Shown piece after piece: positions 1,141 to 34,493 of a DNA stretch of 35,394 bases. The notes beneath the pieces were generated by a model, which searched no databases, was not told where the DNA came from, and worked only from the letters and a program-made list of their open reading frames with translations. The translations under genes and the position numbers were made by a program. Numbering within the stretch: position 1 is the first letter of the stretch; every line of letters begins with the position of its first letter. The stretch is from an uncultured Saprospiraceae bacterium (GTDB taxonomy: Bacteria > Bacteroidota > Bacteroidia > Chitinophagales > Saprospiraceae): the NCBI GenBank assembly GCA_938002665.1, contig CALLAE010000097.1, positions 1-35,394 on the forward strand, written 5' to 3'.

Positions 1141-3147
1141 TTGTCCATAACCCTTTCTAAATACAATACTTTCAGAGTGCTAAGGATATTTTGCCTTATA
1201 ATTTCAATTTGTTCTTCTGGCTTTCTCATAAGCCAAGCTGATCCCCAGCTCAAAACCGCTAATTACAAAATGGATATCCGTCTTGATATCGAAAAAAAGA
1301 AACTTTACGGCACCACAACAATAATATGGAATAATCCATCATCAGACGAAATTCCCTACCTGCTGATGCACCTTTATTACAATGCCTTCAGAAACTCACA
1401 ATCCACTTTTTTTAAAGAAAGAGGTGTTCCAGATTTCCTAACAAAAAATATTGATTCAGAATGTGGATGGGGGTGGACACATATCCACTCCATCAAAGAT
1501 TCTAATGACAACGACCTTTCGGCAGGGCTAAGTTACATCCAGCCAGACGACAACAACCCAGAAGATAAGACAGTACTCATGGTACCTCTGGCTAATCCAG
1601 TAGGACCACAGGAATCACTTTCCTTAACTTTCGAATGGGAAGCAAAAATTCCTCATACCATGCCTCGCACAGGCTACAATATGGACTACTATTTCTTTGC
1701 ACAATGGTTTCCCAAAGTAGGCGTCTACGAACCCGCAGGCACCAGGTATGCATCAGAAGGCGCATGGAATTGCCACCAGTACCATTCTAATGGAGAGTAT
1801 TATTCTGACTTTGGCGTCTATGATGTAAGCCTCACTGTACCTACAGACTACATGGTGGCCGCCAGTGGTGCGCTGAGCACAGTAAAAGAAAATAGCGCAA
1901 CAAAGACTTGGAACTTTGTAGCTGAAAACGTCATTGACTTTAGCTGGACAACCTCTCCACATTATGTAATGACCGAAGACCAATACCAACAAACCAAAAT
2001 CAAACTATACAGCTACCCAGAGAAACATCACTTCAAAGATCGTTACCTGCCCACGATAAAATATACAATGCAATACCTAGAGGAACATCTAGGTCCCTAT
2101 CCCTATCCTACCCTCTCTATCATAGATCCACCCGTACATGGTCTCTACACAGGTGGAATGGAATACCCTACCCTTATTACCTCACTCAGTTTCAACTCTT
2201 TTCCGAAGGGCTTTAAGACTCCAGAAACCTTGGTCGTACATGAATATATACACCAGTATTTTATGCAGATGATAGCCACTCACGAGGTAGAAGAGCCGTG
2301 GATGGACGAAGGATTCACGACCTACTATGAAGGCAGAATTTTAGACGCTTATATGACGGACAAAACTTCCACCATAGAATTTCTTGGAATAAATGCTGGC
2401 AATAAAGAATGGAACAGAGCAGAGTTTTTTGGAACTGATAATCCGAAGATAGCAGCCAATACTAGAAAGAGCTGGCAGTACAAGCATGGCGGCTATGGCT
2501 ACATCTCCTATAACAAAACAGCACTTTGGTTACAGACGATGGAAGGACTACTCGGGCTGGAGACTATGGATGAAATAATGAAAACCTATTTCAAAAAATG
2601 GCAATACAAGCATCCCGCCAGACAAGACTTTATAGATATCGCTAATGAAGTCACCATTAAAAATCATCCTCAACAATATCCTCAAGGGATGGACTGGTAT
2701 TTTGAACAAGTGCTCTATGGTACTGGACTCTGTGACTATGCTGTCGCTTCTATAGCTAATGAAAAAAAGGATAGGGTGAGAGGCTTCATGACAGATCTAG
2801 ATAACTGCGAAGTGCATGATGCTGCTGATGATGAGTATATTTCTACGATTATCCTACACCGTCTAGAAGAACTAAAGATTCCAGTAGAGATTCTAGTGAC
2901 CTTTGAAGATGGCAAGAGCGACACTTATTTCTGGGATGGAAAGGATAGAACTTCAGAGATAATTATAGAGGGTCTCCAAAAAGTAATATCTGTAGAAATA
3001 GATCCTGAGCAAAAAATTTACCTTGATAAAAATTTTCTAAATAATTCTTTGTTGGTCGAGCAGCGATCAGGTGGCGTAAGAAAATTATTTGCAAGGCTCA
3101 TTACGGCAACACAGCATGTTTTTGAATCTATAGCTTGGATCATATGA
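1141..3147 (+). CDS. M1 family zinc metallopeptidase, exported
   Basis: A zinc aminopeptidase of the M1 (gluzincin) family that should trim N-terminal residues from peptides in the periplasm or at the surface. The zinc site is HEYIH at residues 367-371 followed after exactly 18 residues by E390 (HEXXH-X18-E). GGMEY at 338-342 stands for the family GxMEN exopeptidase motif. An N-terminal hydrophobic stretch (ILxxFCLIISICSSGFLISQA-like) is a signal peptide. At 668 aa it is a short M1 form lacking the large ERAP1-type C-terminal domain. An in-frame TAA at 1126 forces a non-ATG start: TTG 1141 is used here, GTG 1177 is possible. The next gene overlaps its stop by 4 nt, so the two are co-transcribed. 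Family is certain; the substrate is unknown. Confidence 0.92.
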   Translation: MSITLSKYNTFRVLRIFCLIISICSSGFLISQADPQLKTANYKMDIRLDIEKKKLYGTTTIIWNNPSSDEIPYLLMHLYYNAFRNSQSTFFKERGVPDFLTKNIDSECGWGWTHIHSIKDSNDNDLSAGLSYIQPDDNNPEDKTVLMVPLANPVGPQESLSLTFEWEAKIPHTMPRTGYNMDYYFFAQWFPKVGVYEPAGTRYASEGAWNCHQYHSNGEYYSDFGVYDVSLTVPTDYMVAASGALSTVKENSATKTWNFVAENVIDFSWTTSPHYVMTEDQYQQTKIKLYSYPEKHHFKDRYLPTIKYTMQYLEEHLGPYPYPTLSIIDPPVHGLYTGGMEYPTLITSLSFNSFPKGFKTPETLVVHEYIHQYFMQMIATHEVEEPWMDEGFTTYYEGRILDAYMTDKTSTIEFLGINAGNKEWNRAEFFGTDNPKIAANTRKSWQYKHGGYGYISYNKTALWLQTMEGLLGLETMDEIMKTYFKKWQYKHPARQDFIDIANEVTIKNHPQQYPQGMDWYFEQVLYGTGLCDYAVASIANEKKDRVRGFMTDLDNCEVHDAADDEYISTIILHRLEELKIPVEILVTFEDGKSDTYFWDGKDRTSEIIIEGLQKVISVEIDPEQKIYLDKNFLNNSLLVEQRSGGVRKLFARLITATQHVFESIAWII

Positions 3148-4022
3148 GGGAAGCTACTAGACTTAATAAGCGGTCTGGCATCTGGACCATCTACACTACT
3201 GCTTGGAAAGCTCTTTGGTCTCAATGGAAAGTTATACTACTTATCTATTCTCTAAACTTACTCATCGCTTTTATTGCTATGGGTCCGCTCAGCAAAGTAG
3301 TGACTGATAGATTAGCAAAGACAGTGTACCATAATAGTTTGGCGGAGGGCTTTGATTATACTTTGGTCATGGACATCCTTAATAACTATGGACTTGGTGT
3401 AGATGTTACTCTGACTCTACTGCTGAGCATGGCTATTCCAGCTTTCTTATGGATAGTATTTTGCAGTGGAGGTATTACAAAAATCTGCATGCTCTATCCT
3501 TACAAAACATCACTGTCTAGTTTTTGGGCAGGCGGGGCAGAATACTTTTTTAGATATCTCCGACTGGGTCTCTATGTTCTCGCAATTCTTGGAGGCATTC
3601 TCTTTCTTTTGTTGTTACTGATGGCAGATCATCTTAATGCACTAGAAATGGTATCAGAGGGACCAGCCAAGAGTAGATTTTTTCTTTGTGTTGGCTTGCT
3701 GTTAGTTGCAGGTTTTATCCTCAATATTTTCAAGGAATTAGCTAAGGCTAAAATTGCTGTGCATGATAAGTCGCTTATCGCACAGCCTAATAGTGAAGCT
3801 TTTCTAAAGACCTTCACCATGCGGAGTATAGCTCTAGGTCTATGCCATTTCTTAGTGCTAGGCTTAGTTTTTGGACTATACTATTTATTGAGAAAGTTGT
3901 GCTGTGGATACTTGATCCCTCTTGTATTAGTGGGACAGCTATTTTTGATATATAGAATTGCTCACCGCTTTGTTAAGCAAGCTTCGTTCTGCTTTTTATG
4001 TGCTTCTGACAGAGAACATTAA
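3144..4022 (+). CDS. Multi-pass membrane protein of unknown function
   Basis: Not recognised as a named family. The chosen ATG overlaps the peptidase stop in an ATGA arrangement, which argues for translational coupling (an upstream TTG at 3135 is the alternative). The 292-aa product has about six hydrophobic segments: roughly residues 27-44, 86-110, 137-157, 175-193, 228-247 and 251-270. A short basic N-terminus (RLNKR) suggests the N-terminus is cytoplasmic. There are no cysteine clusters, no ATP-binding motif and no obvious transporter signature. It could be an inner-membrane partner of the exported peptidase, but this rests only on the operon. Confidence 0.8.
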   Translation: MREATRLNKRSGIWTIYTTAWKALWSQWKVILLIYSLNLLIAFIAMGPLSKVVTDRLAKTVYHNSLAEGFDYTLVMDILNNYGLGVDVTLTLLLSMAIPAFLWIVFCSGGITKICMLYPYKTSLSSFWAGGAEYFFRYLRLGLYVLAILGGILFLLLLLMADHLNALEMVSEGPAKSRFFLCVGLLLVAGFILNIFKELAKAKIAVHDKSLIAQPNSEAFLKTFTMRSIALGLCHFLVLGLVFGLYYLLRKLCCGYLIPLVLVGQLFLIYRIAHRFVKQASFCFLCASDREH

Positions 4023-20662: not shown

Positions 20663-20676
20663 TCAGTACTAAATTT

Positions 20677-20961
20677 ATTCTTCGAACTACTTCCTATAAG
20701 CCGAACCTGATGATACGGTTCCTAAACTTTAAAGGTCTATTTCGACTCCGCTCAACACAGGCGTTTAGGACCTTTAATTTTTTCCTTGAAAGGAAAAAAC
20801 CTGCCCATGATTAAATGCCTGTTAAGTTTAAAGTTCATTCTTCGAACTACTTCCTATAAGCCGAATCTGATGATTCGGTTCCTAAACTTTAAAGGTCTAT
20901 TTCGACTCCGCTCAACACAGGCGTTTAGGACCTTTAATTTTTTCCTTAAAAGGAAAAAACC
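20677..20961. repeat. Two tandem 125-bp palindromic repeats between convergent genes
   Basis: Copy 1 is 20677-20801 and copy 2 is 20837-20961, a 160-bp offset, with very few mismatches. Each copy holds TTAAAGGTC...GACCTTTAA, the overlapping pair CCTAAAC...GTTTAGG, and the common Bacteroidota phrase TTTCGACTCCGCTCAACACAG. In copy 2, CCGAATC-TGAT-GATTCGG is a perfect hairpin; copy 1 carries two mismatches there. The region separates hflX (plus) from bamA (minus) and should serve as a bidirectional transcription stop. Frames crossing it are not called as genes. Confidence 0.85.
20778..20799. terminator. Bidirectional terminator hairpin in repeat copy 1
   Basis: TTTTTTCCTT, two bases, then AAGGAAAAAA, a perfect 10-bp stem with A and T tracts. 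A second copy is at 20938-20959. The pair lies past hflX and, on the other strand, past bamA. Confidence 0.7.
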
Positions 20962-29657: not shown

Positions 29658-30809
29658 TTAGATGCCCTTCCATGTTTTTACAGCGTACTCAGTCCGTTTC
29701 TGATCTTTGTCTCCCCCATAGATCAAGGTCTGGTTCCCTACTTCATCCTTTGCCAATTTTTTGAAAAAGTCCATACCCTTAAACATATCGTATGAGATCG
29801 TTTTGCTAGATTTTATCTCATATATATGCGTGGAATCTGCATCTTCGTACAATAGATCTATCTCATTGCCATGATTGTCTCGCCAGTAATAATAGTCTAC
29901 TGGTAGATTACTATGTAGCGCTCTCTTATACTTTTCTGCTATTATGAAATTTTCAAAAATATGTCCATAGTTCCTATTAGTAGCGACAAGGTTTCCTTTT
30001 CGAATATTCAGCAGATAACATAGTAAACCCGTATCATAGAAATATAGCTTTGGACTCTTGGTCAATCTTTTATTATAGTTCTTATAAAAGGGAGGCAGCA
30101 AGAATAGAACAAAACTAGCCTCTAGCAGGGATAACCAGTTGTTAGCAGTGCTGTGGCTGACACCTGTATCTCGTGCAAGGTCAGAATAATTGAGAAGTTG
30201 GCCAGCCCTAGCAGCACACAGCTTAATGAATCTGCTGAAGGTGGTCATGTTCTGAATATTAGTCAGCTGGGTAATATCTCTTTTAATATAAGTTGCTAGA
30301 TAGTCCTTATAATACTGATCAGGCTCTATTTTTCTATCATAGATAGCTGGATAAGCACCTTTAGTCAGCATGCTTGTGAGATCACCAGTCCAGATTCTAC
30401 CGTTTTTCATTTCATCAAAGTCGTAAGGTAATAAGGTGAACAAGGCCACCCTACCAGCCAAGGACTGCGATATATGCTCCATCAGATTGAAATTCTGAGA
30501 ACCAGAGAGCACAAACTGTCCCATCTTTCCTGAGTCATCTACAATACTCTGTATATACGAAAACAAACTAGGCACCTTCTGTGCTTCGTCTATGATTACC
30601 TTATCGTTGTACTCATTAAGAAAGCCCCTAGGGTCTCTACTTGCGTACTCATTATTATCAGGGTCCTCAAGATTAATGTATCTATATGAACTTAGACCAT
30701 TTCTCAGCAAGGTTGTCTTCCCTGATTGTCGTGGTCCAGTGAGTACTACTACAGGGTATTTCTTTAGTTGTAAATTAATAGAATCTAGTATTCTCCTTTT
30801 TAGTGCCAT
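29658..30809 (-). CDS. AAA-family ATPase with DUF4143 (PD-(D/E)XK-like) domain
   Basis: A 383-aa protein of the AAA_14/DUF4143 type. Walker A is GPRQSGKT at 25-32, Walker B VIIDEAQ at 71-77, and a sensor-like FVLSGSQNF follows at 99-107. A winged-helix segment (YSDLARDTGVSHSTANNWL, about 208-226) precedes the DUF4143 part. There E286, D318 (GNEIDLL) and E331-I-K333 (YEIKSSK) match a PD-(D/E)XK nuclease core with no residue missing. The family is common and variable in number in Bacteroidota; its biological job is not settled, with mobile-DNA or defence roles often suspected. The start is ATG 30809. The promoter region contains a dyad and the first unit of a 22-bp repeat array. Confidence 0.88.
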   Translation of the reverse strand: MALKRRILDSINLQLKKYPVVVLTGPRQSGKTTLLRNGLSSYRYINLEDPDNNEYASRDPRGFLNEYNDKVIIDEAQKVPSLFSYIQSIVDDSGKMGQFVLSGSQNFNLMEHISQSLAGRVALFTLLPYDFDEMKNGRIWTGDLTSMLTKGAYPAIYDRKIEPDQYYKDYLATYIKRDITQLTNIQNMTTFSRFIKLCAARAGQLLNYSDLARDTGVSHSTANNWLSLLEASFVLFLLPPFYKNYNKRLTKSPKLYFYDTGLLCYLLNIRKGNLVATNRNYGHIFENFIIAEKYKRALHSNLPVDYYYWRDNHGNEIDLLYEDADSTHIYEIKSSKTISYDMFKGMDFFKKLAKDEVGNQTLIYGGDKDQKRTEYAVKTWKGI

Positions 30810-30818
30810 ACTACTGAT

Positions 30819-30836
30819 ATTCAGATACTTCTGAAT
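30819..30836. promoter_or_regulatory. 7-4-7 dyad in the ATPase leader
   Basis: ATTCAGA-TACT-TCTGAAT is a perfect inverted repeat between the -7 box (30838-30845) and the ATG (30809). It covers the probable transcription start, a place where a bound repressor or an RNA hairpin would act. Confidence 0.5.
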
Positions 30837-30837
30837 G

Positions 30838-30869
30838 CAAAATTAGATATTATTTGCAGATTACACAAG
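30838..30869 (-). promoter_or_regulatory. Promoter of the AAA/DUF4143 gene, reaching into the repeat array
   Basis: On the minus strand the -7 box TAATTTTG (30845-30838) is an exact TAnnTTTG match. CTTG (30869-30866) lies 20 nt upstream in the -33 position, one base off TTTG. This CTTG is part of the first 22-bp repeat unit, so the array and promoter overlap. Confidence 0.5.
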
Positions 30870-31139
30870 ATATATATTCAATATACACAAGATTTATTTG
30901 CAGATTACACAAGAAATATATTCAATATACACAGAATTTATTTGCAGATTACACAAGATATACTTGCAGATTACACATCAGTTATCTGCAAGCTACCACT
31001 TTGCAAATATTCAATTTACACAAGATTTATTTTCAATATACACAGAGATTATTTGCAGATTACACGAGATATATCTACAGATTACACCTAGTAAATATTT
31101 AATTTACAGAAGATGCATAGCAGATTATACGAGTGAAAA
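30854..31139. repeat. Array of thirteen 22-bp iteron-like repeats
   Basis: Thirteen units follow one another with no spacers and a near-exact 22-bp step (ACAC anchors at 30863, 30885, 30907, 30929, 30951, 30973, 30995, 31018, 31040, 31062, 31084, 31106, 31127). Two subtypes occur: A with TTGCAGATTACACAAGA and B with TTCAATATACACAAGA. The order is A B A B A A A' B B A A B' A'; the last units near ileS are decayed. The array fills the gap from ileS (stop 31146) to the promoter of the ATPase. Frames seen across it arise only because the repeat lacks stop codons. Confidence 0.93.
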
Positions 31140-31145
31140 GATAGC

Positions 31146-34100
31146 TTAGGCTAAATTTCTTACCAAGATCTTAAGGGAAACAGCTCCTGGAAGCTCTACT
31201 TCTGTCCCTCCTTCAGCAGCGCCTAAGTCTAGACTATCAGCAAGGACTTCGGTCTTAATATATGAGCCGTATTGCTCGACAGCACCGCGAACTGATTCAT
31301 GATCAGCTATAGTCACGGCGATTCTATCAGTAACATTAAAATCACTGTCTTTTCTTATGTTCTGAATTCTATTCACCAGGTCTCTCGCCATACCCTCTGC
31401 AATCAACTCATCGGTGAGACTAACATCTAGCGCAACTGTCACATCACCATCTTGAGCGATCTGCCAACCTGGAATTTCCTGTGCAGAAATATCGAAATCC
31501 TCGTAAGCCAACTCAAAAGTCTGACCATCTACTGCTACCGGGAAAGGCGCTTCTGGATTCTTTTCTATCTGAGTTATCTGCTCTTCGTCGAACTGCGAAA
31601 TCAATGCTGCAACCGCCTTCATATGCTTACCCAACTTCTTACCTAGGGTCTTAAAGTTAGGCTTGATCTTCTTCTTTATGACACCACTGGCATCTTTGAG
31701 GTATTCTATTTCCTTGACATTTACTTCTGCTAGTATCAGATCCTCTACCGCTCTCACCTGCCCTTCGAATTTATCATCCAGAATAGGAATAAGAATTTTA
31801 TTGAGGGGTTGTCTTACTCTCAGCTTTTCAGCTTGTCTGAGTGATAACACTAACGAGCAGATGCGCTGAGCATAATCCATACGTTGCTCGAGATCACTAT
31901 CTATCACCTCAGCTTCTGCCCCAGGGTATAAGGCTAAGTGTACAGAGCTGTGGCTGTCTTTTCCAGTTGCTTCATTGAGGTTCTTGTACAACCAGTCCGC
32001 AAAGAAAGGAGCAATAGGTGCCATGAGCTTAGAGATAGTGCTGAGGCAAGTGTAGAGGGTCTGATAGGCCGCAATCTTATCAGCAGAATACTCCCCTTTC
32101 CAGAATCGTCTTCTACATAATCTGACATACCAGTTACTGAGATGCTGATCTACAAACTCCTGAATCTTTCTAGCTGCCCGCGTCGGCTCATAATCTTCAT
32201 AGTCTGCCTCTACTTTAGTCACCAATGTATTTAACAGAGAGATTACCCATCTATCTATTTCTGGTCGGTGCTCTAGTCCTATCTCTTTCTCGCTAAATTC
32301 AAAGCCATCTATATTCGCGTAAAGCGCAAAGAAGGAGTAAGTATTATACAAAGTCCCAAAGAACTTTCGCTTCACTTCTTCTATACCCGCAATATCAAAC
32401 TTCAGGTTGTCCCATGGATTAGCATTAGCCATCATGTACCATCGGGTGGCATCAGCGCCATGCTTTGCTAGTGTCTCAAAGGGGTCCACAGCATTCCCTA
32501 GACGCTTAGACATTTTCTGCCCATTCTTATCTAGAACTAAGCCATTAGAAACAACATTCTTAAAAGAGACTTTATCAAAGACCATAGTGGCTATCGCATG
32601 CAAAGTATAGAACCAACCTCTCGTCTGGTCTACGCCTTCTGCAATAAAATCAGCTGGGAAGTTCCTTTCAAAGACATCTTTGTTTTCAAAAGGATAATGC
32701 CACTGCGCATACGGCATAGACCCGGAGTCAAACCATACATCTATTAGGTCTGCCTCCCGCTTCATTTCTTTGCCTGAAGGGCTGACCAGCGTGACATCAT
32801 CTATATAGGGCTTATGCAAGTCCTCAGGTACGGACTGACTAAGACCCAGAGCGGCATTGGCTTTGGCGATTTCGTTACTCAATTCTTCTATAGAACTGAT
32901 GCATATTTCTTCTTCCTTATCAGCTGTTCTCCAGATAGGGAGCGGGATGCCCCAAAATCTAGAACGGGATAGATTCCAGTCTAATAGATTCTCTAGCCAG
33001 ACCTGGAAACGACCTGTTCCTGTATGTGCCGGCTTCCAATTGATCGTCTTATTGAGCTCCGCCATTCTTTCTCTCATCTTAGACGAACTGACAAACCAGC
33101 TATCTAGAGGATAATAGAGAATAGGCTTATCTGTACGCCAGCAATGTGGGTAGGAGTGGTCGTACTTTTCTACTTTAAAAGCACGATTTTCTTTTTTTAG
33201 CTTGACAGCAATACGGAGATCAGTAGACTCAAAACCATCCACGGCTCTCTCCTCGTCACTATAATATTCTGCTCTTACATAGTCGCCTCCAAAATCTGAC
33301 ACCTCTTCCACAAACTTTCCTTGACTATCCACGAGAGGCACTAATTCCTTACCTCTTCTTACTAAGATAGAAGGTACATCGTTTTGCATGCAGACTCTAT
33401 AATCATCAGAACCGAAAACAGAAGCGGTATGCACTATGCCAGTACCATCTTCCGTAGAAACAAAGTCTCCGAGAATGGCCCTAAAAGCATCTCCACTTTC
33501 TGGCTGCACATAAGGCATCAGTTGCTCATAATGGATACCTTCTAGCTCTCCACCCCTCATGGTCTTAATGACTTTCCATGGAATCAATTTACCAGAAGGA
33601 TCATAATCTTCTATTGCTACTTCTTTGCCTTCTTCTTTTAGGTACTTGCCCATCAGCTCAGTGGCGAGAATAACCGTGATAGGCTCCTTAGTATATGTAT
33701 TGTAAGTCTGTACCAGAGAGTACTCTATTTTAGCCCCTAGCGCAACAGCACAATTAGAAGGCAGTGTCCAAGGTGTCGTCGTCCAAGCTAAGAAGTAGAC
33801 AGAGTTAGGGTGGCCATCGAAAAGGAAAGCAGAGCTGTCATCATTGATGACTTTAAACTGTGCCGTAACCGAAAGATCTTTTATATCCTTATAGCAGCCT
33901 GGCATATTTAGCTCATGGGAACTCAGACCAGTTCCGGCAGCTGGAGAGTAAGGCTGTACGGTGTAGCCTTTGTATAAGAGGTCCTTCTTATAGAGCTGAC
34001 CCAGCAACCACCAGACAGACTCTATGTAGTTATTATCGAAAGTAATGTACGGATCATCCAGATCCACCCAGTATCCCATCTTTCTAGTGATGTCATCCCA

Positions 34101-34493
34101 CTGGTCTTTGAACTGCATGACGGTGGTACGGCAGGCCTGATTGTATTCTTCTACGGTAATCTTAGTACCGATGTCTTCTTTGGTGATACCTAGTGTCTTT
34201 TCGACATTCAGCTCTATGGGTAGGCCATGCGTATCCCAACCCCCTTTTCTTTCTACCCGCTTACCTTTCATGGTATGGAACCTGCAGAATAGATCCTTGA
34301 CTGTACGGCCCATCACATGGTGGATTCCTGGCTTTCCATTGGCAGAAGGTGGGCCTTCGTAAAAGACGAAGGTGTTGTCTTCAGGTCTTTCCGATATACT
34401 CTTATCGAAGATTTTGTTTTCCTCCCAAAAGGCCAGTATTTCCTTATCTATTTCTGGAAGATTTAAACCTTTGTACTCTTTATACTTTGCCAT
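31146..34493 (-). CDS. ileS: Isoleucyl-tRNA synthetase, type 2-like
   Basis: Charges tRNA-Ile with isoleucine in the cytosol. The 1115-aa chain has the Rossmann core with FVFYEGPPSANGKPGIHHVMGR at the N-terminus, the editing domain in the middle (TWTTTPWTLPSN start, EDGTGIVHTAS), the class-I KMSKR loop at 660-664 (GQKMSKRLGN), an anticodon-binding helical domain and a long C-terminal extension. The HIGH signature is changed: where HxGH is expected after ANGxx, the residues are G56-I-H58-H59. The length and lack of a clear C-terminal zinc cluster also fit the eukaryote-like type 2 group. A promoter is present (34519-34551). The 22-bp array starts 6 nt after its stop with no terminator seen. 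Confidence 0.97.
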   Translation of the reverse strand: MAKYKEYKGLNLPEIDKEILAFWEENKIFDKSISERPEDNTFVFYEGPPSANGKPGIHHVMGRTVKDLFCRFHTMKGKRVERKGGWDTHGLPIELNVEKTLGITKEDIGTKITVEEYNQACRTTVMQFKDQWDDITRKMGYWVDLDDPYITFDNNYIESVWWLLGQLYKKDLLYKGYTVQPYSPAAGTGLSSHELNMPGCYKDIKDLSVTAQFKVINDDSSAFLFDGHPNSVYFLAWTTTPWTLPSNCAVALGAKIEYSLVQTYNTYTKEPITVILATELMGKYLKEEGKEVAIEDYDPSGKLIPWKVIKTMRGGELEGIHYEQLMPYVQPESGDAFRAILGDFVSTEDGTGIVHTASVFGSDDYRVCMQNDVPSILVRRGKELVPLVDSQGKFVEEVSDFGGDYVRAEYYSDEERAVDGFESTDLRIAVKLKKENRAFKVEKYDHSYPHCWRTDKPILYYPLDSWFVSSSKMRERMAELNKTINWKPAHTGTGRFQVWLENLLDWNLSRSRFWGIPLPIWRTADKEEEICISSIEELSNEIAKANAALGLSQSVPEDLHKPYIDDVTLVSPSGKEMKREADLIDVWFDSGSMPYAQWHYPFENKDVFERNFPADFIAEGVDQTRGWFYTLHAIATMVFDKVSFKNVVSNGLVLDKNGQKMSKRLGNAVDPFETLAKHGADATRWYMMANANPWDNLKFDIAGIEEVKRKFFGTLYNTYSFFALYANIDGFEFSEKEIGLEHRPEIDRWVISLLNTLVTKVEADYEDYEPTRAARKIQEFVDQHLSNWYVRLCRRRFWKGEYSADKIAAYQTLYTCLSTISKLMAPIAPFFADWLYKNLNEATGKDSHSSVHLALYPGAEAEVIDSDLEQRMDYAQRICSLVLSLRQAEKLRVRQPLNKILIPILDDKFEGQVRAVEDLILAEVNVKEIEYLKDASGVIKKKIKPNFKTLGKKLGKHMKAVAALISQFDEEQITQIEKNPEAPFPVAVDGQTFELAYEDFDISAQEIPGWQIAQDGDVTVALDVSLTDELIAEGMARDLVNRIQNIRKDSDFNVTDRIAVTIADHESVRGAVEQYGSYIKTEVLADSLDLGAAEGGTEVELPGAVSLKILVRNLA

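Follow-up and report, generated by a model that had tools for sequence, protein, structure and literature searches.

AAA+ proteins such as Orc1/Cdc6 and DnaA bind repeated sites at origins, and plasmid iterons are direct repeats of about 22 bp that lie beside the gene for a DNA-binding protein. STAND ATPases are expected to carry a C-terminal sensor repeat domain, and their winged helices are, as a rule, not readers of DNA. In the available part of one report, multimers of MalT are described as binding MalT boxes cooperatively (PMC4381067). The available text of another ranks PDC-S01 as the fourth most common defence across prokaryotes and states that most PDCs await validation (PMC12988326). 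The excerpts searched on PDC-S01 mentioned neither arrays upstream of the gene nor any rule for their period and gave no tested mechanism, and those on DUF4143, AAA_14, PDC-S01 and repeat-linked phage defence contained no description of the arrays reported here.

The repeat array and the gene behind it

The window, that is, the whole stretch of DNA that was analysed, comprises 35,394 nucleotides from an uncultured Saprospiraceae bacterium (GCA_938002665.1, contig CALLAE010000097.1). Its relevant features are collected in Table 1.

Table 1. Features of the array locus, with positions in the window
Feature	Position	Strand	Basis
Putative -7 box TAATTTTG, at array edge	30838-30845	-	Box scan
Array of thirteen units in 22-bp steps, with stronger decay at the distal end	30853..31138	.	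Unit mapping, TRF, lag identity
Unit 1 (type A), promoter-proximal, with putative -33 TTG at 30866-30868	30853..30874	-	Unit mapping; promoter consensus from general knowledge
Unit 7, degenerate, 23 bp	30985..31007	.	Unit mapping
ileS, upstream neighbour, same strand	31146..34493	-	ORF list, homologues; gene name from the earlier note
AAA_14 + DUF4143 gene, 383 aa, PADLOC PDC-S01	29658..30809	-	ORF, Pfam, PADLOC
AAA_14 nucleotide-binding domain, residues 19-134	30408..30755	-	Pfam; fold match to 2qen and 2fna
Putative helix-turn-helix/winged region, residues 186-234	30108..30254	-	Inferred from AF2 secondary structure
Predicted PD-(D/E)XK nuclease-fold domain, residues 268-383	29661..30008	-	Structure models, alignment

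An earlier note on this DNA had described thirteen spacer-less 22-bp units, and mapping bears this out. The units start at 30853, 30875, 30897, 30919, 30941, 30963, 30985 (the degenerate unit 7), 31008, 31030, 31052, 31074, 31096 and 31117; the only irregularities are a 1-bp insertion in one step and a final step of 21 bp. Tandem Repeats Finder (TRF) returned a period of 22 with 11.0 copies, as well as periods of 44 and 88, with a best score of 248. The identity of the array with itself was 0.561 at lag 22 and 0.582 at lag 44. In 2000 Markov simulations, the means were 0.307 and 0.308 and the maxima 0.428 and 0.418, so both values exceed those of all simulated sequences and the array is real. 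A CRISPR array was ruled out for the window, as the units stand head to tail and have no spacers.

The unit types run A B A B A A ? B B A A B A. Thus, the two mixed types claimed earlier are present, but they do not strictly alternate. Mismatches, counted against unit 1 for type A and unit 2 for type B, so that the first two zeros arise by construction, were 0, 0, 1, 2, 0 and 5, more than 8 in unit 7, and then 1, 5, 1, 7, 5 and 7. The series rises distally, which indicates that the units decay, unevenly, towards ileS, and the earlier description of the cleanest units as those nearest the ATPase agrees with these counts. Dyad symmetry is not a general property of the units (10 of 57 at p ≤ 0.05), and the window unit gave p 0.995. 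Long tandem repeats also occur elsewhere in the window, at 504-1057 (period 172 bp, 3.2 copies) and 20670-20961 (160 bp, 1.8 copies).

Bacteroidota promoters have a consensus of -33 and -7 boxes. The near edge of the array lies 43 bp from the ATPase start codon, and 7 bp separate its other end (31138) from the ileS stop (31146). The TTG inside unit 1 is placed 20 bp upstream of the -7-like box, a spacing that fits the earlier proposal that this unit supplies the -33 box. A perfect inverted repeat (30819-30836; 7-bp arms, 4-bp loop) is found between the -7 box and the ATPase ATG. Across the arrayed Bacteroidota genes, an exact TAnnTTTG box was present at most 100 bp from the start in 24 of 47 cases, against 5.0 expected, and this excess of promoter boxes near the array end favours autoregulation.

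The protein encoded behind the array matches PADLOC profile PDLC04790 (PDC-S01), with residues 2-369 aligned to positions 11-402 of 422 (E 3.4e-102). Pfam found only AAA domains and DUF4143 in it, with no Rep initiator domain, and no helix-turn-helix model matched. Foldseek matches include ORC and Cdc6/Orc1 chains. The nucleotide-binding, helical and winged-helix domains of STAND proteins are all predicted, and the C-terminal sensor repeat domain is absent, with residues 268-383 modelled as a nuclease fold. This predicted fold is joined by a D...E-x-K site of the PD-(D/E)XK type, and E286, D318, E331 and K333 are invariant across 29 aligned sequences. The models thus describe a STAND-like AAA+ module that includes a winged helix and is followed, at the C terminus, by a PD-(D/E)XK nuclease fold, which may be active as a nuclease. 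Co-variation of the helix-turn-helix with the repeat unit was negative when tested by region; the top single column co-varying with the unit was residue 220 (30150-30152), in the predicted recognition helix.

Arrays in the source genome and among relatives

The genome of origin contains four DUF4143 genes, and each of them has an array upstream. Their units differ, with 22 bp at the window gene, 32 bp at L002, 33 bp at L003 and 32 bp at L004. A scan of 934 kb of this genome, in which the window, the DUF4143 contigs and contig C42 were deliberately included, gave 23 arrays of period 15 to 100 at a TRF score of at least 70. Only four of them had a period of 22, 23, 32 or 33, and each adjoins a DUF4143 gene, so arrays of this type were not met at unrelated loci in the scanned sequence. 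A 17-base unit pattern allowing up to 3 mismatches matched the genome 19 times in forward and 14 times in reverse orientation, window units counted, and its reversed control 4 and 6 times. A scattered repeat was rejected, as outside the window no two matches lie near each other. On C42, a contig without a DUF4143 match, a TTACA-rich tandem array with periods of 18, 36 and 54 was seen at about 3653-3821 (L374).

The same-order sample consisted of 115 DUF4143 genes from 32 genomes, with weak, partial and some full-length matches left out. Start codons were inferred from the P-loop distance, and an array was called at a TRF score of at least 50, with a period of 15 to 100, within 300 bp upstream. 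Arrays were found at 41 of the 115 genes and, by TRF, not at the other 74. Their smallest periods were 22 (five), 23 (five), 31 (one), 32 (twenty-three) and 33 (seven). Upstream regions of other ORFs in the same loci served as controls and had arrays in 15 of 272 cases, with periods of 16 (six), 17, 19, 21, 30, 31 (two), 32, 60 and 61; the 32-bp one belongs to a DUF4143 fragment, and the two of 31 bp are one repeat seen from both sides. Fisher tests of DUF4143 genes against these neighbours gave 2.9e-13 when the presence of an array was compared and 8e-10 when the period class was, both nominal since the genes are related. AAA_21 genes, one from each of 30 of the sampled genomes, had no array by TRF (0/30). 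The earlier note had tied the array to the ATPase gene, and with arrays at all four source-genome genes and at 41 of 115 in the order, that tie is well supported and wider than claimed.

A TRF-free lag test, with 100 simulations for each sequence, was applied to 114 DUF4143 and 30 AAA_21 upstream regions. It was significant (p ≤ 0.02) for 58 of the 114, with best lags of 32 (thirty-four), 33 (eight), 23 (six), 22 (three), 44, 64, 66 and four others, and for 3 of the 30 AAA_21 regions, with lags of 16, 29 and 42. The mean z over the DUF4143 regions was highest at lag 32, followed by 33, 64, 23 and 22.

The letters of the units differ from gene to gene, and the spacing class follows the protein clade. 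The tree, built by FastTree only, held 113 proteins (two of 115 were excluded as short), and its 53 period labels accept on-rule periods only. On it, the classes 22/23 and 32/33 required 3 changes, against a mean of 10.2 and a lowest value of 8 in 300 shufflings, and both classes were present in 9 of 23 genomes. Within classes, 32 and 33 showed weak clustering (5 changes, against a mean of 7.5 and a minimum of 5 after shuffling), and clustering of 22 versus 23 was not clear (3 changes against 3.8 shuffled). Such tracking of spacing, two or three turns, with the protein branch points to each protein reading an array of its own. In many relatives no array was detected: two clades are devoid of them (0/14 and 0/11 rows), and the clade of the window protein has one in 4 of 12 rows. 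Unit identity was 0.664 for proteins at least 60% identical (21 pairs), 0.596 at 50-60% (57), 0.522 at 40-50% (115), 0.499 at 30-40% (150) and 0.506 below 30% (1253), with shuffled units giving 0.466-0.526. Close proteins therefore have similar letters, which come near background below 50% protein identity. The letters of the unit thus change along with the protein, and the helical step is kept.

Homologues of the window gene carry arrays as well. Nine homologous loci show at least 48% identity; in six of them (L054-L058 and L128), among them L054-L056 of Dyadobacter or Flavobacterium, arrays of 22 or 23 bp stop 27 to 35 bp short of the inferred start, and in L060, L104 and L132 no array was found. 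The sequence TGTAATTTCAAA is shared by L054-L057, and close variants of it occur in L058 and L235. The latter (50% identity) has an array ending 19 bp from its start; of the 28 further loci that were read in a search of the whole phylum, no other is arrayed. In the full set of 80 homologous loci to which the nine belong, 10 were arrayed, with periods of 22 (five), 23 (two), 21, 25 and 44, which points to a trait bound to parts of the family; 21 and 25 fall off the rule.

In other phyla, the genomes of eight named loci yielded 38 genes (L293 and L278 gave none), and 11 were arrayed. The smallest periods were 17 (two, both beside 33), 22, 32 (three), 33 (two), 34, 44 and 86, of which 34 and 86 are off-rule. 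Of 13 genes read from the genome that holds the Victivallales locus L127, seven had 32- or 33-bp arrays. A further sample from the phylum of L127, which we take to be Verrucomicrobiota, had arrays at 8 of 45 genes, with periods of 22, 32 (two) and 33 (five). The P-loop pattern missed four of its 49 loci: in L426 a 23-bp array stands at the start of the frame, in L422 one of 23 bp lies inside the open frame, and L407 and L428 have none upstream. Fifty controls from this sample gave three arrays, one of period 15 and two of 23 bp, the latter probably being those of L426 and L422. The period rule thus recurs in a second phylum, with exceptions. At a gammaproteobacterial gene (L303), the 22-bp unit contains TACTCA...TGAGTA and resembles the units of two Bacteroidota genes at 52-53% protein identity; it amounts to only 1.9 copies. 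In viral contigs, a two-unit pattern matched three loci; none of the P-loop ORFs there proved to belong to the family, and a 22-bp array was likewise not found. The same pattern had no match in 395 genomes of the phylum, a result that is uninformative because the pattern, owing to mixed A and B units, misses the window too.

A probable phased operator and its alternatives

It is probable that the array is a phased operator, bound by the STAND-like AAA+/nuclease-fold product of the gene behind it, with a step set by the protein clade and with self-repression as the outcome. The ATPase, or an ATP-dependent oligomer of it, would bind with one protomer or dimer per unit on one DNA face, an assembly suggested by the spacing. 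The geometry of the protein clade would fix the step at two turns (22/23 bp) or three (32/33 bp). Binding beside or over the -33/-7 region would repress the gene's own promoter, and the bound assembly, bearing nucleases, may be held on standby. The joint absence of gene and array at the ileS site of a related genome (G004) counts in favour of this reading. Against it count the many genes and the two clades without arrays, the off-rule periods, the negative regional co-variation of the helix-turn-helix, the usual role of STAND winged helices and the folding of array RNA. The earlier note had proposed a self-regulating, partition-like or defence-like module and was in part right: self-regulation is the best inference, defence stands as the PADLOC label, and partition or replication finds no support, with a Pfam content of AAA domains and DUF4143 only.

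A defence role, suggested by the family label, leads to a more speculative extension, which can be offered only tentatively. PDC-S01 might be a self-tethered immune filament, in which the STAND-like AAA+ nuclease assembles in register along the array at its own promoter, an array that would serve as repressor site and as trigger alike. Protomer geometry would set the step, and an infection that disturbs host DNA or transcription would cause release of the protein or its rebuilding as an active nuclease. A private array for each paralogue would prevent cross-talk.

A different arrangement, resembling type III toxin-antitoxin systems, would have the array co-transcribed with the gene and the repeat RNA restraining the ATPase-nuclease. 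The layout is alike, with tandem repeats just upstream of an effector gene in the available text on such systems (PMC6315513), and, as this reading predicts, the folding of array RNA exceeds that of Markov controls (mean z -2.03, median -1.45, 20 of 57 below -2), a signal for which palindromic units may account in part. However, the periods cluster at two or three helical turns, and of the 24 exact TAnnTTTG boxes, 12 lie downstream of the array, 3 no more than a few bases from its edge and 9 in its interior, with 23 of the 47 genes having no exact box. The protein, moreover, is an AAA+ with a PD-(D/E)XK fold and no ToxN-type endoribonuclease. Restraint by RNA is considered unlikely.

Equally doubtful is an operator for another regulator or for a host nucleoid protein. 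This possibility draws on the many DUF4143 genes without arrays. Nevertheless, paralogues in one genome differ in their units, the spacing class tracks the protein clade, and units diverge with the protein, as they would not if read by one common host factor. Differing letters within one genome, together with clade-typed spacing, would not be given by a shared host factor or a mutational bias; a self-bound operator gives them simply.

The array could also mark gene mobility, as a target that the ATPase-nuclease recognises to insert, excise or home, and this too is improbable. In its favour, the family is patchy in the order (32 of 60 genomes, 0 to 15 copies, among the matches listed). In G004, a genome of the same genus with DUF4143 genes elsewhere, ileS is followed by about 250 bp and then by the homologue of the window's next gene; this site has no ATPase gene and no repeats visible by eye, so at this position the two occur together or not at all. 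A further DUF4143-family gene, L445 (G476:C8:15500-20500), is flanked on both sides by arrays of one 33-bp unit (1474-1589 and 2908-3020); the frame just before it reads like what is presumably a leucyl-tRNA synthetase, as the window gene stands just after ileS. Against mobility, no repeat was visible at the G004 site, and an ungapped scan of the sampled loci with the units of 65 arrays, which missed L445 with its units of varying length, located copies outside the array at just 3 loci (6 matches, against 2 for shuffled units). An iteron or centromere of an integrated replicon is very unlikely, as it has the array geometry in its favour and against it the AAA and DUF4143 content by Pfam and the neighbour ileS.

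Comparison with known systems

In the available text, PDC-S01 is counted among the commonest candidate defence genes of prokaryotes. For such a family, a putative cognate site with clade-typed spacing puts a binding assay at hand, pairs protein with site, and makes the spacing predictable from protein sequence. Among sequence signs of protein assembly on DNA, quantised spacing of this kind is unusually clean. The window protein matches PDC-S01 (PADLOC; AAA_14 + DUF4143) over nearly its full length.

The type III toxin-antitoxin system ToxIN has tandem repeats just upstream of its effector gene in the text available (PMC6315513), but the window family differs in its helical-turn periods, in a box located at the array edge or downstream of it in 15 of 24 cases, and in an unrelated protein fold. 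With plasmid iterons the difference is that the window gene lacks a Rep domain and that genomes hold several paralogues with different units. Orc1/Cdc6 and DnaA have in common with this system an AAA+ module plus winged helix and repeated sites, whereas the array of the window stands at the promoter of its own gene. MalT and other STAND regulators share the STAND-type AAA+ module; MalT is an activator of other promoters and includes a sensor repeat domain, whereas the window protein ends in a predicted nuclease fold and has its array at its own gene.
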